Virus record (IMG/VR): IMGVR_UViG_3300031251_000098 | Location: 1 to 24,426 of that record | From: a virus | Direction: 5' to 3' (one strand) | DNA length: 24,426 bases | In this document: positions 2,662-18,619 of the stretch, piece after piece | Layout: each line of letters begins with the position of its first letter | How positions within the stretch are numbered: the stretch's first letter is position 1 | Program-made: the position numbers and the translations under genes | The notes under the pieces: model-generated | Seen by the model: the letters and a program-made list of their open reading frames with translations, nothing else | Database searches by the model: none | What the model was told of the DNA's origin: nothing

Positions 2662-4800
2662 GTGGCAGCTTATTTGCCTACTGTAGCTCAAGGTGAGCTA
2701 TCCCCGCCTGACGTTATGGTGAACGCGCCTGAGACGGCTCCTACGCCTGTTATCAAGTCAGAGGATCTTGCGGCTCTTGGGGATAAGCTAAAGAGCACCT
2801 TTGATTCCTACCGCTCAGACCGGCGCATCCAGGAACTGAAGTGGCTGCGCAACCTGCGCCAGTATCTCGGCGTCTACGATCCTGAGTTGGATCGCGAGCT
2901 ATCGTCTGCTCGCTCCCGCGCATACCCGCGCATTACGCGCGTCAAGACTATCTCCGTTCTATCACGCGTCATGAACCTTATGTTCCCCGGCAATGAGCGG
3001 AACTGGTCGCTTGAGGCGTCGCCGTCGCCAGACATGGACCCTCAAGATGTCATGAGTGCTATTCAGCAGATCATGGCGCAGAACCAGCAGTCTGGCGTTC
3101 AGATGCAGATGACGCCTGAGCTTATCAAGCAGGCTGTCAACAATCTTGCGCAGGACCGCGCGACTCAGTTGTCGCTTGTTATTGATGACCAGCTTGAAGA
3201 GTTGGGTGGAGACCAGACTATTGATTATGTGGCGCTCAATCGGTTGGCTCTCAAGTCTGGTATTCTGTACGGTCTTGGTGCTCTTGTTGGTCCGTTTGCC
3301 AGAATGGAGCAGACGACTACGTGGGAGATAGATCCTAATAGCGGTATGCCAATGCCGCAGGTTAAGGAAGTCTACAAGCCGCAGTTCGAGTTCGTTCCTG
3401 TGTGGGACTTATATCTCGATTTGTCGGCTAAGACGCTTAGCCAGATGGATGGCTACTTCCGGCGTATGGTTATGTCTCGCGCTCAAGTGCGCAAGCTGAT
3501 GGATAAGCCTGGATTTTTTGCTGACCAGATACGTGAATATCTCAAGCGCTACCCGAACGGCAACTATAAGCCGCAGCAGTTCGAGACCGAGCTGCGTTCC
3601 ATGGGCGTTAAGGTAAACGTCAACGAGCAAAAGACAGACGGAACGAAGTACGAAGTTATCATTTGGAGTGGCCCCGTTTCTGGGTCGTTGCTGAAGCTTG
3701 CCGGCGTTGAGATTGAGGAAGGCGCTGAGGCTGACGACATTGACGCTGAAGTGTGGATGATAGACGGCAATGTTATCAAGGCTGACATGAACCAGTGGCG
3801 TCAGCTTGGTTTCGACGTGAAGATGCTGCACACGTTCATCTTTGATGAGGATGATACAGCCCCTATCGGCAATGGTCTGCCAAACGTTATCCGCGATTCA
3901 CAGATGAGCATTTGCGCTGCGTCTCGCATGTTGCTTGATAATGCGAGCGTCGTGTGCGGTCCTAATCTGGAGCTAAACACAGACCTTCTGCGCCCGGACC
4001 AGGATCTTACCAGCACCAGCGCGTGGAAGATTTGGTACCGAGAAGGCACCGGTCCTGACGCTGTTCAGCCAGCTATACGCAATGTTCAGATCGACAGCCA
4101 TCTGCAGGAGCTACTGCAGATCATTGAACTGTTCATGAAGTTCGCTGACGCAGAGACGTTTGTTGGTCCTGCGACTGGCGGAGATATGGAGCGCGGCACG
4201 ATGCCGTCTGAGCCGATGAGGACAGCGGCTGGGGCGTCGATGCTGCGTGGCGATGCCGCTCTTCCGTTCAAGGACATCATCAGGAACTTCGACAGTTTTA
4301 CGCAGTCGATCATCCAGAGCTTGGTCTACTTCAACAGGCTGTTCAATCCTGACCTTGCTCCTGCTGGCGACTACAACGTCATTGCTCGCGGCGCTACGTC
4401 TCTTATCGCGAAAGAGGTTCGCGGTATGCAGATCGACCAGTTGATGCAGACGATGCCGACGCTGGCTGAGAGCGTTGCGCTGAATACGGATGACCGTAAG
4501 TTTGCGGAGGCTGTCTATAAGGTCCGCGACCTTAGTAACCTGCTTGTGTCGCCCGATGAGGCTGACCGCAAGAAGGCTGCGCAAGACCAGATGCAGCAGG
4601 CACAGGTTGCTCAGCAGCAGCAGTTGACTGAGGCGAACGTTCGCAAGCTTCTGTCTGATGCGTTCAAGAACATTTCACAAGCCAAGAAGAATGACGCCAA
4701 CGCCGATGCCACGCAATCTAAAGCTGCGCTCGACATACTGGAAGCAGGACTTGAACCAAATGACGCAAGAGAGACGCAAAAGCCAGCAGGAGTTAGCTAA
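2662..4800 (+). CDS. Portal protein, P22 gp1-like (712 aa)
   Basis: Forms the dodecameric ring at one vertex of the head through which DNA enters and leaves. GTG at 2662 follows AGGAG at 2651-2655. Length (712 aa) matches podovirus portals of the P22 type. Features visible: an N-terminal helical region with a basic patch (SYRSDRRIQELKWLRNLRQY, about residues 49-68), a conserved-looking stem/wing core with FEFVPVWDLYLDLSAKTL (about 249-266) and DTAPIGNGLPNVIRDSQ (about 398-414), and a C-terminal Gln/Ala-rich helical tail (about 635-680), as expected for a barrel helix. Position between terminase and scaffold supports the call. The last 41 bases overlap the next gene. I judge the family by pattern, not by search. 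Confidence 0.88.
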   Translation: MAAYLPTVAQGELSPPDVMVNAPETAPTPVIKSEDLAALGDKLKSTFDSYRSDRRIQELKWLRNLRQYLGVYDPELDRELSSARSRAYPRITRVKTISVLSRVMNLMFPGNERNWSLEASPSPDMDPQDVMSAIQQIMAQNQQSGVQMQMTPELIKQAVNNLAQDRATQLSLVIDDQLEELGGDQTIDYVALNRLALKSGILYGLGALVGPFARMEQTTTWEIDPNSGMPMPQVKEVYKPQFEFVPVWDLYLDLSAKTLSQMDGYFRRMVMSRAQVRKLMDKPGFFADQIREYLKRYPNGNYKPQQFETELRSMGVKVNVNEQKTDGTKYEVIIWSGPVSGSLLKLAGVEIEEGAEADDIDAEVWMIDGNVIKADMNQWRQLGFDVKMLHTFIFDEDDTAPIGNGLPNVIRDSQMSICAASRMLLDNASVVCGPNLELNTDLLRPDQDLTSTSAWKIWYREGTGPDAVQPAIRNVQIDSHLQELLQIIELFMKFADAETFVGPATGGDMERGTMPSEPMRTAAGASMLRGDAALPFKDIIRNFDSFTQSIIQSLVYFNRLFNPDLAPAGDYNVIARGATSLIAKEVRGMQIDQLMQTMPTLAESVALNTDDRKFAEAVYKVRDLSNLLVSPDEADRKKAAQDQMQQAQVAQQQQLTEANVRKLLSDAFKNISQAKKNDANADATQSKAALDILEAGLEPNDARETQKPAGVS

Positions 4801-4990
4801 GAAGCTTCACGAGAATCTTGGCAACTACGATGTCCAGAACATATTGGACTTAATTCGTAACCTGCGCGCTAATAGCCTTGAAGATTTGGTTACGTGTGAA
4901 GAGAGCCGCTTCAAGGAATATCAGGGTCGTATCAAGGCGTTCGATGATGTCGAGCGTATGATAACGCGCCCGCCTATCAGGAGTAACTGA
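4760..4990 (+). CDS. Hypothetical small charged protein overlapping portal end (76 aa)
   Basis: The frame is open from 4658, but the likely start is ATG 4760, which follows AGGA (4746-4749). An upstream start would lie deep inside the portal gene with no ribosome binding site. The 76-residue product (MTQERRKSQQELAKKLHENL at its start) is strongly charged and helical, with a middle ALIRN-like amphipathic stretch and a basic end. The gene overlaps the portal by 41 bases, and its TGA overlaps the scaffold ATG (TGATG), so it is translationally coupled to both. Small genes at this place occur in related phages without known function; an assembly accessory role is a guess. Confidence 0.7.
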   Translation: MTQERRKSQQELAKKLHENLGNYDVQNILDLIRNLRANSLEDLVTCEESRFKEYQGRIKAFDDVERMITRPPIRSN

Positions 4991-5916
4991 TGAGTGAAGT
5001 TGAGAAGAGTGAGAGCGAAGTTTTTACCGAGACTTTTAATACGCTTGCAGAGACCGGTGAGGTTCCTGGTTTTCCCGTAGAAGCCAAGGTTGAAGAGCCC
5101 ACGCCTGTTGTTGAGGAAGAGAGCCATGCGGACGATAAGCAGGAGCCTGTATCTTCCGAGTCTGATGCGCCCGTTCCCGCTGACGATGCACAGCCTGAAA
5201 CTGAGGCTGTGGCTGGTGCGGAAAAGAAAGAAGAACCCGCTCCGCAGAAAGAGCCTCAAAAGGCTGGAGCCGATCAAGACATCATCGACAGGCTTGCGCA
5301 GGCAGTTAAAGACAGAGTTCAGTCGCCTGTTCCTGAACAGCAGCCTCAACAGCCAGAAACCTACGAGCCGCAACCTGTTCTAACGCAGGAAGACTACAAG
5401 TCGCTAGAGGCGTTCGAGAAGGATTGGCCTGACGTTGCCAAGGCGATGGAACTGCGCGCCAAGGAACAGGCTAACGCTATCGTCAACCATGTCTTCAAGG
5501 AGTTTGCTGACGAGGCTCGCCCATATTTCAAGGCTGTGGCTGAGATGCGCCAGCAGTTGCACGCGCAGCAGTTGCAGCAGAAGGTAGAAGACTACCCTGT
5601 CGTCCGCGAGCAAGTTATGGAGTGGGCGAAAAAGCAGACACCAGTTCGGCGCGCAGTCTATGACCAGATTATTAATCGCGGGACGCCTGATGAGGTTGCT
5701 GAGCTTGTATCCATTTACAAGGCTGATACTGCCCCGCCGCCCGCGCCAGTTGCTCCTGTAGCGCCCGCTGCTCCAAAGCAGCTATCTCCCGCCGTCAAGA
5801 AGGCTGCGGCCGCTCTAGCGCCGGTGGCGTCTAAGCGCTCAAATGTCGTTCATGGCGATGACCCTATGGACTTCGACGGCGCGTTTAAAGAGGCGAACAA
5901 ATTCTTCTCGAACTAA
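4990..5916 (+). CDS. Scaffolding protein (308 aa)
   Basis: Internal scaffold that guides capsid shell assembly and is removed before or during packaging. The call rests on composition and position. Residues 1-115 are very rich in Glu, Pro, Ala, Val and Asp and must be disordered. Residues 130-235 form charged helices (EDYKSLEAFEKDWPDVAKAM, then QQLHAQQLQQKVEDYP). An Ala/Pro linker (about 245-275) leads to a basic-then-acidic C-terminus ending NKFFSN. P22-type scaffolds use a small helical C-terminus to contact coat protein. ATG 4990 overlaps the preceding stop and follows CAGGAG at 4978-4983. The gene lies between portal and capsid, but the usual direct adjacency to capsid is broken here by an accessory block of about 2.3 kb. 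Confidence 0.8.
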   Translation: MSEVEKSESEVFTETFNTLAETGEVPGFPVEAKVEEPTPVVEEESHADDKQEPVSSESDAPVPADDAQPETEAVAGAEKKEEPAPQKEPQKAGADQDIIDRLAQAVKDRVQSPVPEQQPQQPETYEPQPVLTQEDYKSLEAFEKDWPDVAKAMELRAKEQANAIVNHVFKEFADEARPYFKAVAEMRQQLHAQQLQQKVEDYPVVREQVMEWAKKQTPVRRAVYDQIINRGTPDEVAELVSIYKADTAPPPAPVAPVAPAAPKQLSPAVKKAAAALAPVASKRSNVVHGDDPMDFDGAFKEANKFFSN

Positions 5917-5931
5917 TGAAGGAGAGAACAT

Positions 5932-6168
5932 ATGGATTTCGGTGATGCTGTGCGTGCGTTGAAGGCTGGTAATAAGGTTGCTCGCGAAGGCTGGAACGGT
6001 AAGGGCATGTGGCTTGTGCTGGGTGACCCTGCCAATGTTCTTGTTTGGGATGATTACCCGATGCTGCCGTTTATTGCGATGAAGACGGCTGATGGCAAGA
6101 TGCTTCCTGGGTGGCTTGCAAGCCAGACGGATATTCTTGCGGAAGATTGGGTTGTTGTTTCAGCGTAA
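5932..6168 (+). CDS. tad2: Tad2-type anti-Thoeris protein, DUF2829 family (78 aa)
   Basis: Tad2 proteins are phage-encoded sponges. They bind the cyclic ADP-ribose isomer (1''-3' gcADPR) made by Thoeris ThsB TIR proteins and hold it away from the ThsA effector, blocking abortive defence in the cytoplasm. Here the family pattern is nearly complete: MDFGDAVRALKAG at the start, KVAREGWNGKGMWL (residues 15-28), LPFIAMKTADG (45-55) and the signature PGWLASQTDILAEDW (59-73). Length is normal for the family. A slightly extended loop with two Asp and a Trp (31-44) separates the two conserved halves and may tune the ligand pocket. ATG 5932 follows GAAGGAGAGAAC, a strong ribosome binding site, 15 bases after the scaffold stop, so it is likely expressed late with the head genes unless an internal promoter exists. 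Confidence 0.9.
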   Translation: MDFGDAVRALKAGNKVAREGWNGKGMWLVLGDPANVLVWDDYPMLPFIAMKTADGKMLPGWLASQTDILAEDWVVVSA

Positions 6169-6182
6169 GAGAGAGACTTGGC

Positions 6183-6374
6183 ATGGGAAAACGAAGCACT
6201 GTTCCAATAGATGAAGAAGAGCTTGCTTCGTTTGTGAGCAGGTTTGAGGAAGATGCGGAAGACGAGGCGTCGCTTAAGGAACTGGCGTCTCTTCACGAAC
6301 TAGCTGTCAGCGTCATAAAAAACTCGGAAGAGTTCCGGCGCGAATATAAGCGGAAGCAATCCGAAGATAAGTAA
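6183..6374 (+). CDS. Hypothetical acidic helical protein (63 aa)
   Basis: The start is taken as ATG 6183, which follows AAGAGAGAGAC (6167-6177); the frame is open further upstream but overlaps tad2 without a ribosome binding site. The 63-residue product is mostly helix-forming and acidic (EEEL, EEDAEDEASLKELASL at about 11-41) with a basic tail (REYKRKQSEDK). No transmembrane segment or known motif. It lies 14 bases after tad2 and 15 bases before the phosphoesterase, with the same AGAGAG ribosome binding site style, so the three are probably one transcript. No function can be assigned; small acidic phage proteins of this type sometimes act as inhibitors of host enzymes, which here is only a hypothesis. 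Confidence 0.7.
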   Translation: MGKRSTVPIDEEELASFVSRFEEDAEDEASLKELASLHELAVSVIKNSEEFRREYKRKQSEDK

Positions 6375-6389
6375 GAGAGAGATGCTGCC

Positions 6390-7466
6390 ATGGCTGTTGG
6401 TGAAGAACTTGCTCGAACGCGACAGGCTATAAACCGAACGCGCAATGCAGACGGGTCACAGAACCTGGCTTTGGCGGCACAAGAACTTGGTCTCTCAAAG
6501 GATACTTTGCGTAAGAGGATAGAGCGTAACCCTGGTCTTTTGGAGAAGTTCAAGAAGCCAAGCCTGCCATCTTCATCTCGAACAATTGACGAGTTGGTAA
6601 AAGATAAGATCGAGATTTCGCGCAGGGCTAAGGATGCCGACGAAGCGCGCGATCTTATTAAGATACCTGTCAATATAGATGGGCCGTTTGGGTTGCTGAT
6701 TTTTGGCGACCCTCACGTTGATGCTGATGGCTGCGACTTTGACACGCTGGCTAAACATAGGCAGATAGCGATTGACCATCCGTTCATAGTCGCCGGTTCG
6801 ATAGGCGACCACCAAAACGCGTGGGTTGGCCGTCTTGGCGCATTATACGGCGAGCAGAACGTAACAGCTAAGGAATCATGGAAGCTTGTTGAGTGGTTAA
6901 TAAACCCGATACAATGGCTATTTCTTATTGGTGGAAACCACGATCTTTGGGTCGGCTCAGGAGACCCGCTTGAGTGGATAGCCCGCCAAGCGAACAGTCT
7001 ATACGAACCTCATGGTGTTCGTATGCAGCTTGAACACCCATGCGGCGCTATGACGCGTATACACTGCCGACACGATTTTCCTGGGCGCTCAATTTACCAT
7101 GTCAATCACGGGCCAAAGCGCGAGGTATACTTTGGGTTCCGTGACCACCTAATCGTCGCCGGTCATTTGCACGTTGGCGGAGATGAGGGCATGGTTATGC
7201 CAGACGGCGTTTGCGCGCAGTTGGTCCGCGTTTCTGGGTTCAAGGTGGTTGACCATTATGCTCATCAGCTTGGCCTCAAGAAAGTCCCGATCCACCCTTC
7301 AGCGTTAGTCATTATCGACCCGCGAGAGCCTGAGACATCTCGGGCAAGGGTATGGTGCGCCCCAACTGTCGAGCACGGCGTCAAGTTTCTAGATACGTTG
7401 AGGGCAGAGTATGATGCTGAACGAGGCAATAAAAGACGAGAGAAGCGAGGCGGAGGACATCGTTGA
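6390..7466 (+). CDS. Calcineurin-like metallophosphoesterase with N-terminal helix-turn-helix (358 aa)
   Basis: A two-metal phosphoesterase. All hallmark motifs are present: GDPHVD (D107, H109), GSIGDH (D140), GGNHD (N183, H184), a His near 225-228 (HCRHD) and GHLHVGG (H259, H261), so it should be catalytically competent. Residues 25-50 form a helix-turn-helix (LALAAQELGLSKDTLRKRIE), an unusual attachment suggesting DNA binding or recruitment. The substrate (DNA end, cyclic nucleotide, other phosphodiester) cannot be read from sequence. ATG 6390 follows AAGAGAGAGATG. Phages often carry such enzymes near packaging genes, where nuclease or DNA-processing roles are suspected; next to tad2, cleavage of an immune nucleotide signal is an alternative. 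The last 56 bases overlap the next gene. The C-terminus is very basic (KRREKRGGGHR). Confidence 0.9.
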   Translation: MAVGEELARTRQAINRTRNADGSQNLALAAQELGLSKDTLRKRIERNPGLLEKFKKPSLPSSSRTIDELVKDKIEISRRAKDADEARDLIKIPVNIDGPFGLLIFGDPHVDADGCDFDTLAKHRQIAIDHPFIVAGSIGDHQNAWVGRLGALYGEQNVTAKESWKLVEWLINPIQWLFLIGGNHDLWVGSGDPLEWIARQANSLYEPHGVRMQLEHPCGAMTRIHCRHDFPGRSIYHVNHGPKREVYFGFRDHLIVAGHLHVGGDEGMVMPDGVCAQLVRVSGFKVVDHYAHQLGLKKVPIHPSALVIIDPREPETSRARVWCAPTVEHGVKFLDTLRAEYDAERGNKRREKRGGGHR

Positions 7467-7611
7467 ACAGCTTCTCAAGGCGAATGGTAAAGACCCAGTG
7501 GCGGCACTCTATGACGCGGGCCTATGGATACTTGAGGTCCACGCGCAACGCTTGCAGGCGGAAGGTGCGGTATCTGCTGGATACGTGAGGCGCGGCCCTA
7601 GTGGAGAGTAA
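7411..7611 (+). CDS. Hypothetical helical protein overlapping phosphoesterase (66 aa)
   Basis: ATG 7411 (or ATG 7414) follows GAGGGCAGAGT, with GAGGG six bases upstream of 7411. The 66-residue product reads as two amphipathic helices (AEDIVEQLLKANGKDPVAAL, then an ILEVHAQRLQAEG stretch) and a short basic end. It overlaps the end of the phosphoesterase gene by 56 bases, a sign of coupled translation. No family recognised. The helix-turn-helix-like layout is too short and irregular to be called DNA-binding. It belongs to the accessory block between scaffold and capsid. Confidence 0.68.
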   Translation: MMLNEAIKDERSEAEDIVEQLLKANGKDPVAALYDAGLWILEVHAQRLQAEGAVSAGYVRRGPSGE

Positions 7612-7615
7612 GACT

Positions 7616-7852
7616 ATGGACGACGATGACGACATCGAAGTCGTGTACAACGATCCTGAAATGCAGGATGCGATAGCTTCCAGAGCGTTCGCTTACGAGA
7701 AGGTGTTCGCCATCGTCTCAAAGGAGCGCGACAAGGCCATGCGGAAAGAGGGGCAGATGATGCTGTCTGCTATCCGGCGCTCGTTCAAGACGACGCCAAC
7801 GGCTGATGTCGTATCAATTCAGGGTGGCAAGGAATGCTCGTCGTCGTCATGA
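7616..7852 (+). CDS. Hypothetical acidic-start protein (78 aa)
   Basis: The start is placed at ATG 7616, five to nine bases after GGAGAG (7602-7607); an upstream GTG at 7601 would put that ribosome binding site inside the gene. The protein begins MDDDDDIEVVYNDPEMQ, a strongly acidic lead, followed by a helix (SRAFAYEKVFAIVSKERDKA) with many charges, and ends with a Ser/Cys tail. Similar small charged proteins are found in phage accessory regions without known function. Five bases separate it from the gene before, and it overlaps the gene after by 19 bases. Confidence 0.65.
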   Translation: MDDDDDIEVVYNDPEMQDAIASRAFAYEKVFAIVSKERDKAMRKEGQMMLSAIRRSFKTTPTADVVSIQGGKECSSSS

Positions 7853-8025
7853 TCTGCTCGAACCTGGTGGCATTCCGAGACTATAGGCCAGAGACGGCCC
7901 GCATGGTCGTCACGAAGCATGTCGAGCAGGTTGGATGCGCGTCTCCGTCTATGGCGCAGGACATCACCAGCGCTACTGGGGTTGATGGTGGTGAGTATTT
8001 CCGCATTCGCTGCATTATGAAGTAG
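7834..8025 (+). CDS. Hypothetical small protein with hydrophobic start (63 aa)
   Basis: ATG 7834 follows AAGGA (7828-7832) very closely and lies inside the end of the preceding gene (19-base overlap). The N-terminus MLVVVMICSNLVAF is hydrophobic but short, and its neighbour residues are uncharged, so it could be a buried strand rather than a signal peptide. The rest is soluble with three Cys (positions 8, 35, 60) that might form disulfides or bind metal. The product ends YFRIRCIMK. This alternating pattern (GGEYFRIRC) looks like a terminal beta strand. No family recognised. The gene continues the tight overlapping run from the phosphoesterase. Confidence 0.58.
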   Translation: MLVVVMICSNLVAFRDYRPETARMVVTKHVEQVGCASPSMAQDITSATGVDGGEYFRIRCIMK

Positions 8026-8032
8026 GCCCGTT

Positions 8033-8092
8033 ATGGCGTATGGGCTGTTTATAATCGTGTTCATCGTTCTGATCATATTGTCAGGCCAATGA
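8033..8092 (+). CDS. Hydrophobic micropeptide 1 (19 aa)
   Basis: ATG 8033 to TGA 8090-8092 encodes MAYGLFIIVFIVLIILSGQ, almost entirely a single membrane-spanning helix with no charged residue. An AGG (8024-8026) lies about seven bases before the start. Its TGA overlaps the start of the next micropeptide (ATGA, 8089-8092), the classic coupled arrangement, which makes translation of both more believable than chance hydrophobic frames. Function unknown; membrane micropeptides in phages may be holin-like, exclusion or defence-related. Confidence 0.5.
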   Translation: MAYGLFIIVFIVLIILSGQ

Positions 8093-8160
8093 TACAGCTT
8101 CTGTGGACATTCGCTGGCGTGACATTCGCGTTCGTCGTGCTGGCATACATCCTTCTGTAG
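8089..8160 (+). CDS. Hydrophobic micropeptide 2 (23 aa)
   Basis: ATG 8089 overlaps the stop of micropeptide 1 by ATGA and runs to TAG 8158-8160. The peptide starts MIQLLWTFAGVTFAF and ends VLAYILL; again it is one uncharged membrane-length helix. An AGG (8083-8085) lies just upstream. Two consecutive membrane peptides joined by a four-base overlap suggest a two-component membrane assembly, comparable in layout only to small holin or spanin pairs. There is no signal-peptidase II lipobox, so it is not a typical o-spanin. Confidence 0.5.
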   Translation: MIQLLWTFAGVTFAFVVLAYILL

Positions 8161-8163
8161 AGC

Positions 8164-8196
8164 TTATTTGACACATATTCGGTGTGGTATGTAAAT
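8164..8196 (+). promoter_or_regulatory. Candidate promoter before capsid gene
   Basis: TTATTTG (8164-8170) repeats the element at 554 and 2594. Here it forms a perfect -35 consensus TTGACA (8168-8173). Possible -10 choices are TATGTA (8188-8193, 14-base spacing) or GTAAAT (8191-8196, 17-base spacing); neither is strong. A promoter right before the capsid gene, the most abundantly needed product, makes biological sense. Confidence 0.3.
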
Positions 8197-8232
8197 ACCC
8201 TCGAAGCCAATCGCCCAAGCAAGCGGGAACTG

Positions 8233-8253
8233 GATTGAGCGCTTCACTCAATC
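8233..8253 (+). promoter_or_regulatory. Hairpin in capsid gene leader
   Basis: GATTGAG (8233-8239) pairs perfectly with CTCAATC (8247-8253) around a seven-base loop CGCTTCA. It ends 11 bases before the GGAG ribosome binding site (8265-8268) of the capsid gene. No T-tract follows, so it is more likely a 5' leader stabiliser or regulator than a terminator. Confidence 0.38.
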
Positions 8254-8274
8254 ATCCTCTGCTTGGAGACTACC

Positions 8275-9330
8275 GTGGCTCAGATTACCGCCTATGGCGA
8301 TATTTCGCCTGCGGTTGCTGCCTGGTCCGTCGTCAAGATGCTGAAGCGCGGTGTTCCGCTTTTGCAGCTTGAACAGTTCGGTCAGGCGTACCCGCTTCCC
8401 ACTAACAGCACCCAGACCGCCAAGTTCCGCCGTTACTTCCTGTCCGGCGCAACAGGCTCTGCTGGTTCTGGCTCTGCCGCTAACCCGTTCTTCATTCCGC
8501 TTGCGACGACTCCGCTGGTGGAAGGCGTGACGCCGGTTGGCAACAAGCTTGCGAACCAGGATTACACTGCGACGCTCGCTCAGTATGGCGACTTCATCAC
8601 GATCTCTGACGTGATTGTTGACACGCACACTGACGAGATTCTTGCGCAGGCGACTGACGTTCTCGGTGAGAGCGCTGCTTCGACTGTTGAGACGCTTCGC
8701 TACAATGTGCTGAAGGCCGGCACGAACGTCTTCTATGCGTCCAAGGCTGCTTCGCGCGCTGCGCTGCTTCAGCCGATTACGCTGGCTGACATTCGCCGTG
8801 TCGCGACTGGCCTGAACCGCCAGAATGCTCAGAAGATTTCGTCTGTGATCAGCTCGTCTGCTGATTACAACACGAAGTCGGTTGAGCGCGCTTACTTCGC
8901 CGTCGTGCATCCTGACGTTGAGAGCGACATTCGTAACCTCGCAGGCTTCAAGCCGGTTGCGGATTACGGTCCGCACACGTCTCCGCTGCCTGGCGAAATC
9001 GGTTCGGTCGAGCAGATCCGCTTCCTGACTTCCACGATCATCGCTCCGTTCGGTGATGCGGCGAGTTCGGGTGGCGCTTCTACCACGACTTTCCGTTCGA
9101 CTGCTTCTAACTACCCCGACGTTTACCCGGTTCTGTTCTTCGGCCGCGATGCTTTCGGTATCGTTCCGCTGAAGGGCAAGTCGAGCATGACGCCGATGGT
9201 TGTCAATCCGAAACCTGCTGCTGGCGACCCGCTCGCTCAGCGCGGCACTGTCGGTTGGAAGCTCTACACCACCACCGTGATTTTGAACGACGCCTGGATG
9301 GCTCGTCTCGAAGTCCTGGCCACCGCTTAA
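8275..9330 (+). CDS. Major capsid protein, N4-gp56 family (351 aa)
   Basis: Forms the icosahedral shell (HK97-type fold in this family). Family-like features by eye: a helical N-terminus (MAQITAYGDISPAVAAW), LVEGVTP at about 81-87, YGDFITISD at about 104-112, VHPDVESDIRNLAGF (about 214-228), a GEIGSVEQIRF segment (about 240-250), FFGRDAFGIVPL (about 294-305), and the end motif DPLAQRGTVGWK (about 322-333) before a short C-terminal strand. The length is normal. The frame opens at TTG 8263, but GTG 8275 is chosen because GGAG (8265-8268) sits six bases upstream of it; the resulting start MAQIT is also natural. It follows a leader with a hairpin and a promoter-like site. Confidence 0.92.
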   Translation: MAQITAYGDISPAVAAWSVVKMLKRGVPLLQLEQFGQAYPLPTNSTQTAKFRRYFLSGATGSAGSGSAANPFFIPLATTPLVEGVTPVGNKLANQDYTATLAQYGDFITISDVIVDTHTDEILAQATDVLGESAASTVETLRYNVLKAGTNVFYASKAASRAALLQPITLADIRRVATGLNRQNAQKISSVISSSADYNTKSVERAYFAVVHPDVESDIRNLAGFKPVADYGPHTSPLPGEIGSVEQIRFLTSTIIAPFGDAASSGGASTTTFRSTASNYPDVYPVLFFGRDAFGIVPLKGKSSMTPMVVNPKPAAGDPLAQRGTVGWKLYTTTVILNDAWMARLEVLATA

Positions 9331-9346
9331 TAGGGAGGGGTAACTA

Positions 9347-9664
9347 ATGGCTACTGTAACTTATCTTGCCCGCTCGGGCGGTGTCGTCAATACGGCGGTT
9401 GGTTCGTTCACTTCGGACGGCTCTGCGCAGACCATCACTCTTGGCTTCAAGCCGACCTGGATGAAGGTCTTCAACGAAACCGACGTGATCACCTGGGAAG
9501 TCAACCTGTCGTCTACCGCTACGAAAGTGTGGAAGACCGTCACGGCTGGCACCCTGACCGTCGATACCGGCTCGGCCATTGTCATCAACACTGATGGCAC
9601 TGTCACCCTGTCGTCTGGTGCGGTTGGTACGTCGAAGGTCATCAACTTCGTCGCCTACGCCTAA
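9347..9664 (+). CDS. Probable capsid-associated beta protein (105 aa)
   Basis: ATG 9347 follows AGGGAGGGG (9332-9340), one of the strongest ribosome binding sites in the window, consistent with abundant product. The 105 residues are Thr/Ser/Val/Gly-rich alternating strands (TITLGFKPTWMKVFNETDV, then TLTVDTGSAIVINTDGTVTL) with no Cys. It lies 16 bases after the capsid gene. Small all-beta proteins in this position usually decorate the capsid or form head fibres. The family is not recognised with certainty, and the role is inferred from position, composition and expression signal. Confidence 0.75.
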   Translation: MATVTYLARSGGVVNTAVGSFTSDGSAQTITLGFKPTWMKVFNETDVITWEVNLSSTATKVWKTVTAGTLTVDTGSAIVINTDGTVTLSSGAVGTSKVINFVAYA

Positions 9665-13150: not shown

Positions 13151-16100
13151 TTGGTTTACCCGCTTCCTACTAACCGCAACCAGTTACCGTCGCTTCGGCA
13201 GGCCATGGGTCCGCTGGAGAACTTCACGTCTGGCGTCGGTCAGGGGTGGAACACTGGCCAGCAGATGTTTGACGCTGGCGTTGCTGGTTTGGCTCGGGCT
13301 GCTGGGTATCAGGATACCGCACGCGACTGGGAGCGTTCTGCTGATGAACAGGCGTCTGAAGCGCAGCGATATGCCAATCCGGCCGTACAGACAGCGCCGT
13401 GGCGAGAAGGTGGCGGCGGCTGGGGTAATGCGGTGCCGTGGGCGGCGAACCTCGCTGGTCAGTTCGTCGGCGGGGCCGCTCCTTTGGTTGCTGGTGGTCT
13501 GGTTGGGGCTGCTGCTGCTCCTCTTGTTCCAGAAGCTGTCGGAGGCGCAGCGCTTGCTAGTGGCCTTGGCATGGGGCTGGCGAGCTACCCGCAATCGGTT
13601 GGCTACAACTATCAGGCCGAGCGTGACGCCAATGCTGCGCAAGGCGGTGGCGAAGTTACGCCTGAACAGGCTCAGAGCGCTGCTGCGTGGGGTGTTCCTG
13701 GCGCGGCGCTGAATGCCTTCGCTCCTACGCGGGCGATAGGCGTTGGAAAGAGCGCGGCTGGAATTGCTGGCAGGACTATGCTCGATGCGGCCAAGGATGT
13801 GGCGCGAACGGGTATTGATAACGCCATCGCGACCGGCGCTCAGACAGCAATTACCCAGAGATTTCGCCCCGACGTATCCGAAGAGGACAAGCGTAAGGAA
13901 CGCGACGACGCGATCATTACCGGATTCCTTGGCGGCGTTGGTATGGGCGCTGCTGGTGAAGGCGTCGGGCGCATTATCAAGCGCGTTACCGGCAATACGC
14001 CTACGCAGGATATTGACGCTGTAACGAAGCAGGTGTTGGACCCAGAGAAGGCGCAGGCAGATGCCGTTCAAGAGCAAGGCCCAGAAGGGCTATATGTACG
14101 CGAACCTGCCGAAGTTGGCGGCGGAGTTCCAGAAGGAAACGCCCAAGGGGGCGAAGTTGCCGGAGCACGCCCACAAGTCGAAGGCGAAGTCAGCTTCCTC
14201 GATGAAGGAAAAGGTGAGCGCCCACAAGAAGTAGCGCCGCAGCCTGTAGAGCCACCAGACGTTCCCAAGCAATATCTCGCTGAAGCTGAGAAGGCTGCGC
14301 GTGATCGGTCTCTTGACGAGAAGATTGATCTTCTGCTGAAGAACCCTGCGCCGGAAGCGAATAAGCGGTTGAGCGCATTGCAGTGGGTGAAGTCGGCGCT
14401 TGGGGATGAAACTGGGGCGTTGAAGGTTGGGGATAAGGATTTATCTGGACTATCAAGGGATGAACTAAAAAGTACAAAGGGAGTTTGGTGGCACGGTTCT
14501 CCTAGTGGAGATATGCGAGGTGGTTCTTACGGCTTGCATCTCGGAACGTATGAAGCCGCAAAGCAGGCTCTTGAAGCACGCATTGGCACCCCCGCTGAGG
14601 GCGAGTGGGACGGCACGCGGAAGTATGGTGAGACTCTACTAGCCGGTAAAAAGCGGTTAGCAGAACTTGACCCAAATGGTTACAACGAAACTGGTTTTAA
14701 TGTTGACGCGCCGGAAGAGAATTACTTCGCATCTAAGATGCCTAACTATGGTTCTGGAGAAGCTATCAACCCAGAGCACACTCCTTCTATAGAGCCGTAT
14801 TCTCTGAATGGTAAAATGACTAATTCCCCACAGAATCCTCACGAGGATTCCATGGCTAATGGCTATATGCGGGCGGCACTAAAACGTGGCAATGCGAAAA
14901 GCGGGTATTATTACAAGAATGTTGGCGAGGACGCTGGCTCTGTATCAATAGTCGTCCCTAATTCTGGGCATATAGAGAAGATAGTAAATAAGCAGCAGTC
15001 AGGGCCACCAGAGATCGTTCGCAAGGTAGGCAACGCTGTTGCGCGCTTCGTGCGGAACGAAGATGGCATGTTGCGGTTGCCCGATGATCCTAAAGAGAAG
15101 CAACCAATAGACCGCCCCGCTGGCACGCCGCCGATTGACGGGCCGCTTGGCCCTGCGCCTGCTGTGCCTCCTGTTCCACCTAAGATCGTTGCACGCCCTC
15201 CTAGCGTTGACGAAGCCGCCGCCATGCGTCCTGCTACGGGGGGGGGTGATGGTGGCGTTAAGCCGCCTGGCGGAGGTGGTGAGCCGCCTGCTCCTATCCC
15301 TGACAAAGATTTTGAAGGCCATCCTATACGCACGATGGACGACGTTAACGGTTCATACCAGCGTCTCGTCCGTGCTGTGAAGGAAGGTAAGGTTGGGCAG
15401 GCGTTCCGACAGTTCGGGCTGTGGGGCTTCTCAGAGCACCATATCAACGAACAGTATAAGGCGCTTCTGCCGCAATACGACGCACTCACCCAAGAGCGAG
15501 AGAAACGGTCCGCGCTGAACCAGCGCATTCAGGCCAACGCTTGGCACATGCAGGCGGAGTCAAAATCGGCAGCAAAAGATACGAAGGCGCAGGAAGCCTA
15601 CAAGGCAATGCTCAAAGTTGAGCAGGCGCACCAGCTTGGTATTGATCCCTCTGTGCCGCTTGAGAAGCAATCTGAACGTATCAGGAAAGAACTTGCGCTG
15701 GATACCGGACGCTATAAGAACCTGCACTCGGAAGCCGAATCAGCGCTGAAGATCGCCAAGCAGAATCCAAAGGCTATGGCGGCGCTAGAGAACCTACGCG
15801 CTCAGTTTGAAACGAACTTCAGCCTTCCAGCCGCCGCTCTTATCTATAAGCATCTGAAGAACACGCTTCAGCCTGACGTTCCGCCAAAGGAGATTACGCC
15901 TGAGTGGACGGCGAAGGAACAGACGAAGGCAGAACTTCTCTCGCGTCTTGTAAGCCCAGCACATGAGCTTCTGAATAACCCAGAAGTAGATATGTCGCCG
16001 CAAGGCGCGATGAAGCACGCGGTTGGCTCGCTTGATCACGTTGTCGGAATCGCGAATGAATTGCTCAAGGCGCTCCCTGAGAACATAAAGGAAGAGATTG

Positions 16101-18619
16101 TTAAAGACGAGAACGGCAAGAAGATTGTTCAGGAAACAAAAGTTTCTTCTGATCCTCTACTGCAAAAGTTCGTAGAGAATGTCGAGGAAAACCGTGGCCG
16201 CTTAAAGGACGCTGTTTATTCTAACCTTATGCGCCAAGGCAGTCACGGCCTGTCGTTTAGCATCGCTGAAGAGAATGGGATGATCAAGCCTGAAGCGCTG
16301 AAGCGTGTTCAGGAAGCCGTCAAGGCTGACGGGTTCAACGTCGTCATTGATCCGCTGTCGCATCAGCCTGACGTATTTATCCGCTCAGACAATACTGCGC
16401 AGCTTGCAAACCTGAAGCGCACAATCATCAAACTTTCTGAAAAGGGTGCTGTCAGAAAAGACAACATCAAGCACGGCGCTATGGACGTGTTTAACAAGGA
16501 TAACTCGTCTTCCAAGCTGGTCGATCAGATGATCAATGTGCTGAACGCGAGCGACGAGTTCAAGGCTCCTGAAGGCTCGTCTCAGGAACTTATCGACTCT
16601 CTTGAACGGCGCAAGGCCGATAATATTGCCATGCTTAAAAACATGGCAATGCACTTCATACCAGAAGGTTCTGCCGCGAAGTCGAAACTTCATAGGCAAT
16701 ACATTGCCGGGTTCGAGGGTGATCCGTTCAGGGCTGTGGCAAAGCAGTCTCGGGAAGTCGCGCAGAACGTGTCGAATGTTCTCGGAACTGATGCCGTCAA
16801 CGACAGGCTCGGAGACGTAAAAAAGGGTTGGGAGGCGGCCAAGAACGTCGATCATCCAATGCACGCCTACGAGGCTACGCTTGCTGCGCTATATAACCAC
16901 GCCGCTGGACGAGAAGAAGATCGCCAGTTAACTGCTGGCGGTAGCTGGCAGGACTTCATTCAGTCGATGGTGTTTTCAAAAGGGCTTGGCTTCAACCCGT
17001 CTACCGCGATCCTACAGCCGTTGCAGCTTGCCACTTACGGTATGCCTGAGCTTGCCAAGAAGGTTGGCTTCATGAAGGCCACGACTAATCTTGCCGCCGC
17101 TACTGATAGCGCGAACAAGGTTATGAGGGCGCTGTGGTTGGAGGCCAAGAAAGAGGGTGGGCTGTCTTATACGGATATGCCGATCACGACTGAGGCGCTA
17201 AAGGCTGCTGGACTTGATAAAGAGACAGAGAAGTTCACCATCAGTCTCGTTAATATGGGCGGCATTGATACCGGCGGCATTAACAGAAGCCTTGGGCATA
17301 TTGCTGATGCGCGTCTTGATGGCAGTAAGTTAGCTAAGGGTATCGACGCATATACTCGTATGTCGTCCATGATGGGCTATTACGCGGAAACACATTCTCG
17401 CGTTCTCATGGGCCTTGCTGCGAAGAAGACGTGGGAGCAGCGTTACGGTAAGCCTGAGTTCGGCACGCCTGAATATACGAAGATGCTGGAGTTTGCAAAG
17501 CGTTCGATTGATGAGGCGCTGTTCAACTACTCAAATGAGAATCGCGCTCAGATGACTTCCAACGGGCCGAAGGGTCTGTTTGGCAATGCCACGAAGCTGG
17601 CTTTCGTATTCCAGTCTTACTGGATGATGGCTGCTGAGAAGATGTATCGCGAGATGCACGCCATCGCCACGGACAACCCGCATTTGACTAAGGAGCAGAA
17701 CGCAGAGCTACGCAAGGAAGCGTGGAAGTTCATGCTTGGACACGCGGCTGCTACTGCTGCTGTTGCTGGAACGCTTGGCCTTCCCGGTATGACTGTGTTC
17801 TCGTCAATCTACGATAAGCTTCACGACGCCGCCAGCCCTGAGACTGGCCCGTATGACATGAAACAGGCATTTGCCAACTGGTTGGAGATTCATGCCGGGC
17901 ACAGCGTTGGTGACGCCATTGCCTACGGCCCGTCTCGCTTGCTTGGTGCATCTGTTCATTCGCGCACGTCTGAAGCTGACTTCGCTCCGGTTCCGTCGTT
18001 CCTTACTGATCGCGGCCCTATGACGCCCGCCGTAAAAAAATGGATCGCTACTCGTCTTGGAGCTGGCACCAGCATCGTTGAAGAATTGGCACGCGGGTAC
18101 GATAAATACGACAACGGAGACTATATCGGTGCGGTCGCCTCACTGTTCCCGGCTGGCGGTAGGAACGTGGTTCTTGCTGGGCAGCAAGCTGCGTCTGGGT
18201 CATACCGTGATAACCGTGGTCGCGTAATCCCTAACGCCCCTGTTACCGCTCCCGCAGTTGCAACACAACTTGTCGGGTTCACACCTGTTCAGTTGGCTCA
18301 AGAGAAAGAAGCTGATCAGGCTCTTCGTCGCTACGACACGACGATGGACCAGAAGTCTGGAAACATCGTCAACCGTATGGTCAAGGCTCTACGCGACAAT
18401 GACAAGGTTGCATTCAATCGCATGTTGCCCGAAGCCCGCGCGTTCGAGAAGAACCACCCAGGCCATGAGATAGTTGACAGAGCTAAGGACGCATTCAAGC
18501 GCGAGTTCAAACAGCATGACGTGGCGCAGAAGACCGGGGTACCACATACACGCTGGACGAAGGATAAGCGGCGCACGCAGATGATCGCCCCTTACATTGA
18601 TAGCCTCAAGAACCAGTAG
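13151..18619 (+). CDS. Giant polyvalent / internal virion protein with ADP-ribosyltransferase-like domain (1822 aa)
   Basis: TTG 13151 follows GTGAGG, ten bases after the previous stop. Layout: residues 96-145 and about 215-280 are Gly/Ala-rich hydrophobic helices of the kind seen in membrane-penetrating ejection proteins; 285-440 is charged linker; 446-610 is an ADP-ribosyltransferase-like domain; 640-725 is a Pro/Gly-rich linker; 730-1270 is long charged helix; 1270-1822 is a helical C-terminal region with FNPSTAILQPLQLATYGMP (about 1280) and YAETHSRVLMG (about 1411), typical of domains that recur at the end of large phage polyvalent proteins (LPD38-like, from recall). Such proteins are thought to be injected with the DNA and to act early on the host. 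No lysozyme or protease motif was seen. A run of nine G at 15238-15246 does not break the frame. Confidence 0.85.
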   Translation: MVYPLPTNRNQLPSLRQAMGPLENFTSGVGQGWNTGQQMFDAGVAGLARAAGYQDTARDWERSADEQASEAQRYANPAVQTAPWREGGGGWGNAVPWAANLAGQFVGGAAPLVAGGLVGAAAAPLVPEAVGGAALASGLGMGLASYPQSVGYNYQAERDANAAQGGGEVTPEQAQSAAAWGVPGAALNAFAPTRAIGVGKSAAGIAGRTMLDAAKDVARTGIDNAIATGAQTAITQRFRPDVSEEDKRKERDDAIITGFLGGVGMGAAGEGVGRIIKRVTGNTPTQDIDAVTKQVLDPEKAQADAVQEQGPEGLYVREPAEVGGGVPEGNAQGGEVAGARPQVEGEVSFLDEGKGERPQEVAPQPVEPPDVPKQYLAEAEKAARDRSLDEKIDLLLKNPAPEANKRLSALQWVKSALGDETGALKVGDKDLSGLSRDELKSTKGVWWHGSPSGDMRGGSYGLHLGTYEAAKQALEARIGTPAEGEWDGTRKYGETLLAGKKRLAELDPNGYNETGFNVDAPEENYFASKMPNYGSGEAINPEHTPSIEPYSLNGKMTNSPQNPHEDSMANGYMRAALKRGNAKSGYYYKNVGEDAGSVSIVVPNSGHIEKIVNKQQSGPPEIVRKVGNAVARFVRNEDGMLRLPDDPKEKQPIDRPAGTPPIDGPLGPAPAVPPVPPKIVARPPSVDEAAAMRPATGGGDGGVKPPGGGGEPPAPIPDKDFEGHPIRTMDDVNGSYQRLVRAVKEGKVGQAFRQFGLWGFSEHHINEQYKALLPQYDALTQEREKRSALNQRIQANAWHMQAESKSAAKDTKAQEAYKAMLKVEQAHQLGIDPSVPLEKQSERIRKELALDTGRYKNLHSEAESALKIAKQNPKAMAALENLRAQFETNFSLPAAALIYKHLKNTLQPDVPPKEITPEWTAKEQTKAELLSRLVSPAHELLNNPEVDMSPQGAMKHAVGSLDHVVGIANELLKALPENIKEEIVKDENGKKIVQETKVSSDPLLQKFVENVEENRGRLKDAVYSNLMRQGSHGLSFSIAEENGMIKPEALKRVQEAVKADGFNVVIDPLSHQPDVFIRSDNTAQLANLKRTIIKLSEKGAVRKDNIKHGAMDVFNKDNSSSKLVDQMINVLNASDEFKAPEGSSQELIDSLERRKADNIAMLKNMAMHFIPEGSAAKSKLHRQYIAGFEGDPFRAVAKQSREVAQNVSNVLGTDAVNDRLGDVKKGWEAAKNVDHPMHAYEATLAALYNHAAGREEDRQLTAGGSWQDFIQSMVFSKGLGFNPSTAILQPLQLATYGMPELAKKVGFMKATTNLAAATDSANKVMRALWLEAKKEGGLSYTDMPITTEALKAAGLDKETEKFTISLVNMGGIDTGGINRSLGHIADARLDGSKLAKGIDAYTRMSSMMGYYAETHSRVLMGLAAKKTWEQRYGKPEFGTPEYTKMLEFAKRSIDEALFNYSNENRAQMTSNGPKGLFGNATKLAFVFQSYWMMAAEKMYREMHAIATDNPHLTKEQNAELRKEAWKFMLGHAAATAAVAGTLGLPGMTVFSSIYDKLHDAASPETGPYDMKQAFANWLEIHAGHSVGDAIAYGPSRLLGASVHSRTSEADFAPVPSFLTDRGPMTPAVKKWIATRLGAGTSIVEELARGYDKYDNGDYIGAVASLFPAGGRNVVLAGQQAASGSYRDNRGRVIPNAPVTAPAVATQLVGFTPVQLAQEKEADQALRRYDTTMDQKSGNIVNRMVKALRDNDKVAFNRMLPEARAFEKNHPGHEIVDRAKDAFKREFKQHDVAQKTGVPHTRWTKDKRRTQMIAPYIDSLKNQ
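14486..14986 (+). other. ADP-ribosyltransferase-like domain inside the giant protein (residues about 446-612)
   Basis: The segment opens with WWHGSPSG (H448), an HG(S/T) strand as in H-Y-E-type ADP-ribosyltransferases, followed by GLHLGTYEAA (461-470), where H463 stands near the usual second position. It closes with YYYKNVGEDAGSVSIVVP (about 585-602), which follows the pattern GxxYxNxxEDxGSxSxVV that ends many phage polyvalent toxin-like domains; E593 is a candidate catalytic acid. Substrate unknown. The usual middle Tyr is not obvious, so activity is uncertain. Confidence 0.6.
15238..15246 (+). repeat. Nine-G homopolymer inside the giant gene
   Basis: Nine consecutive G, coding for Gly-Gly-Gly in the Pro/Gly-rich linker downstream of the ADP-ribosyltransferase-like domain. 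The frame is intact at this length. A one-base slip would cut the protein after the toxin-like domain, so the tract is either a slippage-prone switch or a simple sequencing risk. Confidence 0.8.

Follow-up and report, generated by a model that had tools for sequence, protein, structure and literature searches.

A probable membrane micropeptide gene in an accessory island, and a likely nucleotide element, upstream of a phage capsid gene

Do the very short hydrophobic frames found at the end of a phage operon encode membrane peptides, or are they a by-product of the composition of the DNA between two genes? Two such frames, of 19 and 23 codons, precede the major capsid protein (MCP) gene in a 24.4-kb viral record, itself a fragment, which was analysed over its full 24,426 nucleotides (the window). 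The window encodes a terminase (977–2401; Terminase_6N match), a head-tail adaptor/portal protein (2662–4800; PHROG 332), a scaffold-like protein, so named from its position (4990–5916), and the MCP (8275–9330, plus strand), which matches annotated phage major capsid proteins. An island lies between the scaffold and MCP genes. It starts with a Tad2-like protein (5932–6168; PF11195, E = 6.4e-26) and continues with a small gene, a 358-aa exonuclease/phosphoesterase-like protein of the DNA repair type (6390–7466; PHROG 7339) that heads an operon-like module, a conserved 66-aa protein (7411–7611), a conserved 78-aa protein with an acidic start (7616–7852) and a 63-aa protein with a short hydrophobic N-terminus and three invariant cysteines (7834–8025); all genes given here with island coordinates are on the plus strand. 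The 63-aa gene overlaps the 78-aa gene and is directly upstream of the two micro-frames. Among the reference phages, we found neither a DNA match to positions 7400–9400 nor a match to the 63-aa protein at E = 1. The Tad2-like gene is a candidate anti-Thoeris gene, and a rhizobiophage with a Tad2-like protein has been described (PMC13299392). The C-terminal part of a 1822-aa protein encoded downstream of the MCP gene (13151–18619) gave matches to PHROG 11358 and to a DarB-like family of antirestriction proteins.

The first micro-frame, MAYGLFIIVFIVLIILSGQ (19 aa), extends on the plus strand from the ATG at 8033 to the TGA at 8092 and starts 7 bases past the stop of the 63-aa gene. The second, MIQLLWTFAGVTFAFVVLAYILL (23 aa), extends on the same strand from the ATG at 8089 to the TAG at 8160, and the ATGA at 8089–8092 is common to both. 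The coordinates and the overlap reported by the initial annotation are thus exact, and so is its description of one uncharged hydrophobic helix per frame: D, E, K, R and H are absent from both products, the mean hydropathy is 2.38 and 2.12, respectively, and a predicted membrane helix spans most of each, with hydrophobicity sums favouring insertion, as judged on composition scales rather than by a trained predictor. Both frames are shorter than the usual gene-calling limits and stand at the end of the island, as had also been claimed. They are followed by a TTGACA box with the palindrome GGTAT-N4-ATACC (8168–8199, plus strand) and by an MCP leader containing CCAAGCAAGCGG and the inverted repeat CCAAGCA...TGCTTGG (8214–8268, plus strand).

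Frames of this kind are infrequent. Over the six reading frames of the window, 3 out of 261 frames of 15–40 aa are uncharged and reach a mean hydropathy of 1.5 or more, the micro-frame pair accounting for two of them; the corresponding counts are 3/604 in a 64-kb relative (G001) and 0/135 in the first 20 kb of another (G003). Of 5000 dinucleotide shuffles of positions 8026–8262, 0.14% contained one or more ATG frames of this kind (of at least 19 aa) and none contained two, although the frame counts and shuffle figures overstate significance somewhat, because an earlier reader had chosen this place out of 24 kb.

The relatives were then considered. A capsid scan found 449 loci, of which 80 were kept, and an MCP scan of the genome contigs gave 13 loci. 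By our own count from the listing, a long frame ends at most 61 bases from the capsid match in 54 of the 80 loci, which therefore have no island. The island next to this MCP gene was found in three other contigs only, all from sample 3300043449: 000929 (L001, G001), 001881 (L002, G002) and 001412 (L084, G003). When the viral contigs were scanned, an alignment of the 63-aa protein matched the L002, L084 and L001 contigs only, an alignment of the 23-aa product matched the L002 contig only, and the 78-aa protein had no matches. The 700 bases upstream of the capsid match were scanned in the 80 related loci (four of them shorter than the full 700 bases) and in the window for hydrophobic micro-frames of 14–60 aa with a hydropathy peak of 1.9, which were flagged only in L002 and in the window; a micro-frame of L001 was missed because an endonuclease gene separates it from the capsid gene. 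The capsid gene of L002 contains a Group I intron (1096–1322; RF00028), and in L001 (4718–5572 and 5726–6007) the capsid gene is interrupted near its start, with a GIY-YIG homing endonuclease gene upstream.

The initial annotation had suggested a search for conserved pairs of short hydrophobic frames at this position, and its outcome is divided: two of the three relatives with the island have a counterpart of the 23-aa frame at this position, and one of the comparisons shows constraint at the codon level, while the 19-aa frame has no counterpart. In L002, where a related MCP gene adjoins, the 23-aa frame occupies the same place with 17 of 23 residues identical to the window. The two sequences differ at 19 nucleotides, distributed as 6, 2 and 11 over codon positions 1, 2 and 3. 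When these changes were re-placed at random in 20,000 trials, identity as high was reached in 0.3% and stop codons arose in 47%; among the six frames of the stretch, the 23-aa frame keeps the most residues (18/24 including the stop, the next best keeping 12/24). As for L001, it carries at the same position a 26-aa frame ending in VFVLLAYVLL, a weaker match. Leaving aside the L002 peptide's matches to itself and to the window, it scores best against this frame (E = 0.025 in 1.2 Mb of loci), and the codon test of the L001 frame is not significant on its own (P = 0.39 versus the window and 0.15 versus L002). Homologues of the 23-aa frame thus number only three including the window, the others coming from one sample, and the peptide had no match in Pfam or PHROGs, nor in the reference phages at E = 10.

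The third relative, L084, is informative in another way. Here the 23-aa cistron is cleanly absent, and the stop of the 63-aa gene is followed closely by the promoter box. Since L084 and L002 are nearly identical on both sides (62/63 residues in the 63-aa protein, 101/105 bases in the promoter/leader), a single cistron of 23 codons has been gained or lost cleanly, which fits a discrete gene. The 23-aa frame is also not needed ahead of the MCP gene, because L084 keeps the MCP promoter/leader without the micropeptide. As far as can be judged from sequence comparison, this cistron is probably a genuine accessory gene for a membrane micropeptide, and a dispensable one.

The 19-aa frame behaves differently: it is absent from L001, L002 and L084, and has no relative in the 1.2 Mb of loci. 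Both frames occur together in none of the three island-bearing relatives, the second only in two, and neither in one, so that a conserved pair was rejected, and the conserved two-part membrane system first envisaged finds no counterpart. The 19-aa frame would be a lineage-specific addition, as yet unproven, and may or may not encode a useful peptide.

Translation of these frames would have to rely on coupling, because their ribosome-binding sites are weak. The anti-SD duplex energy is −3.1 at the 19-aa start (8033) and −1.9 at the 23-aa start (8089), values equalled or bettered by 29% and 53%, respectively, of 407 plus-strand ATGs; the site is good for the 63-aa gene and fair for the 23-aa gene of L002 (−6.2, better than that of the window). 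This weakness is among the points in favour of a different, somewhat unlikely reading, namely that neither frame is functional and that both are hydrophobic through base composition (T-rich second positions) in an indel-tolerant spacer before the capsid promoter. The stretch does differ in length among the four contigs, the 19-aa frame is found in no relative and L084 is empty at this place. However, the rarity of one such frame in the shuffles and the failure of two to appear argue against a non-functional spacer, as do the codon-position pattern and the kept identity when the 23-aa frames of the window and L002 are compared.

Downstream of the 63-aa gene and ahead of the capsid promoter, there is no micropeptide cistron in L084, one each in L002 and L001, and two in the window. 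We consider it doubtful that this gap serves as a docking site at which cistrons for single-helix micropeptides would be gained, lost and stacked singly, each coupled stop-to-start to the operon, with the two of the window cooperating as a minimal two-peptide membrane device. It is improbable that the pair arose when a frameshift broke up an earlier membrane protein with two helices: fusing these adjacent helices, which lie in overlapping frames, would give a helical hairpin, but in L002 the 23-aa half occurs by itself and has a better ribosome-binding site of its own, and a fused version is present in no relative.

Holins and pinholins are hydrophobic helices, and the uncharged membrane helices of the micro-frames resemble them; the micro-frames are, however, shorter, with one helix and without an adjoining endolysin, lying as they do between the 63-aa gene and the MCP gene rather than in a lysis cassette. 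The window being a fragment whose own lysis genes are not seen, the evidence comes from the 64-kb relative G001, in which an endolysin (PF11860, PHROG 1224) is grouped with a spanin-like gene (PHROG 1403, E = 5e-4) at a distant site, adjoined by a weak holin match (PHROG 920, E = 0.033). Because these genes sit elsewhere in G001, and given that the close relative L084 has neither frame, a holin- or pinholin-like lysis role is quite improbable. Very little also speaks for leader peptides, or translation of the spacer, that would regulate the capsid gene: the frames end 114 bases upstream of the capsid start, but the promoter-like box and the leader intervene, and L084 manages with both of these and without either peptide. 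Finally, we give hardly any credence to a 19-aa type I toxin-like peptide that would resemble IbsC in size and composition and be paired with an antisense RNA, since, even though IbsC (19 aa) and ShoB (26 aa) are both membrane depolarising and are named with DinQ as exceptions lacking positive C-terminal residues (PMC8309996), the 19-aa frame is unconserved, no promoter-like site was found on either strand of 5800–9500 (an unusual promoter could escape such a consensus scan) and nothing in the window matched Rfam at the gathering score.

IbsC and ShoB (PMC8309996) are like the micro-frames in length, in the single hydrophobic helix and in the uncharged C-terminus, and a type I toxin-like action is possible by this analogy; the micro-frames differ in belonging to a phage operon where no antisense RNA was found. 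The phage small proteins (<100 aa) acting on the host (PMC11323111) are, as a broad kind, likewise very short, accessory and easily missed by gene callers.

The exonuclease-like, 66-, 78- and 63-aa genes recur together. In L117 and L125, exonuclease-like, 78-aa and 63-aa-like genes stand in the same order, the last with 33% and 24% identity, respectively; in L119 and L121, the exonuclease-like gene is accompanied by the 66-aa gene, and in L121 by the 78-aa gene as well. In none of these four loci did tblastn reveal a relative of the window's capsid protein. Since a search with the 63-aa protein of the window alone reported no match in the records behind L117 and L125, their relation to it is based on position, overlap and alignment. 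Immediately after the 63-aa-like gene, neither L117 nor L125 has a hydrophobic micro-frame on the plus strand; therefore, the micropeptide is not a fixed part of the module.

The DNA between the micro-frames and the MCP gene has features of its own. The TTGACA box and palindrome are common to all four island-bearing contigs, as is the CCAAGCAAGCGG-type leader, and the box with its palindrome may be a regulated promoter; a generic sigma-70 scan of both strands over 5800–9500 gave no promoter. A nucleotide element, CCAAACAAGCGG...(TTGGCCCCAGTC), is found at 8207–8268 in the window and upstream of the MCP gene in L003–L080. It is unusually conserved, being non-coding in some phages and located inside the end of the scaffold gene in others. 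The CCAAGCAAGCGG-type 12-mer, a pattern picked after some of the loci had been seen, occurs within 160 bases upstream of the capsid gene in 55 of 81 loci. A second pass, using 165 bases with L084 added and duplicates removed, gave 18 sequences with the 12-mer 60–88 bases before the start, non-coding where inspected, and 28 with the 12-mer 133–165 bases before the start, in which the scaffold gene nearly reaches the capsid gene.

The bias of this pattern was avoided in a codon test on 29 distinct abutting scaffold genes picked by the protein motif KQA..LAPV; 58 abutting frames were examined, and duplicates, frames in another register and genes without the exact motif (e.g., KKA) were left uncounted. 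Although the scaffold sequences are related and the counts therefore non-independent, codon use at the motif departs from that elsewhere in the same genes: glutamine is CAA in 29/29 (24% elsewhere), alanine GCG in 29/29 (33%), proline CCA in 25/29 (10%), valine GTC in 28/29 (31%) and leucine TTG in 20/29 (13%). The 28 coding-type sequences gave a consensus fold whose ends pair, with pair 18–67 occurring both as U-A and as C-G; 15 non-coding sequences (three of the 18 left out) gave a two-pair fold only. No Rfam family matched at the site of the element, and positions 8020–8300 gave only a chance-level match. Judging from these sequence patterns, an overlapping RNA or DNA element, possibly regulatory, is likely to be present before the MCP gene, and it may matter more than the micropeptides.

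For the micropeptides themselves, we favour, with middling confidence, a real but dispensable single-pass membrane micropeptide gene in the 23-aa frame. This gene would close the accessory module that is inserted in the phage between the genes for scaffold and capsid, as its final cistron, and would be translated by coupling to the preceding gene. In the window, the inserted 19-aa frame would occupy the position after the stop of the 63-aa gene and pass ribosomes on via the ATGA overlap. The 23-aa product, once translated, would span the inner membrane of the host as one uncharged helix, and we infer that during infection it could bind or disturb a membrane protein of the host, or disturb the membrane itself, for host takeover or exclusion. 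For hydrophobic micro-frames at the ends of operons, synteny together with the codon pattern allows a judgement even when family searches fail on length. If translated, the 23-aa frame would be a membrane gene of very small size for a phage, and its recent gain or loss among phages that are otherwise almost the same would provide a natural comparison of phages with and without it.
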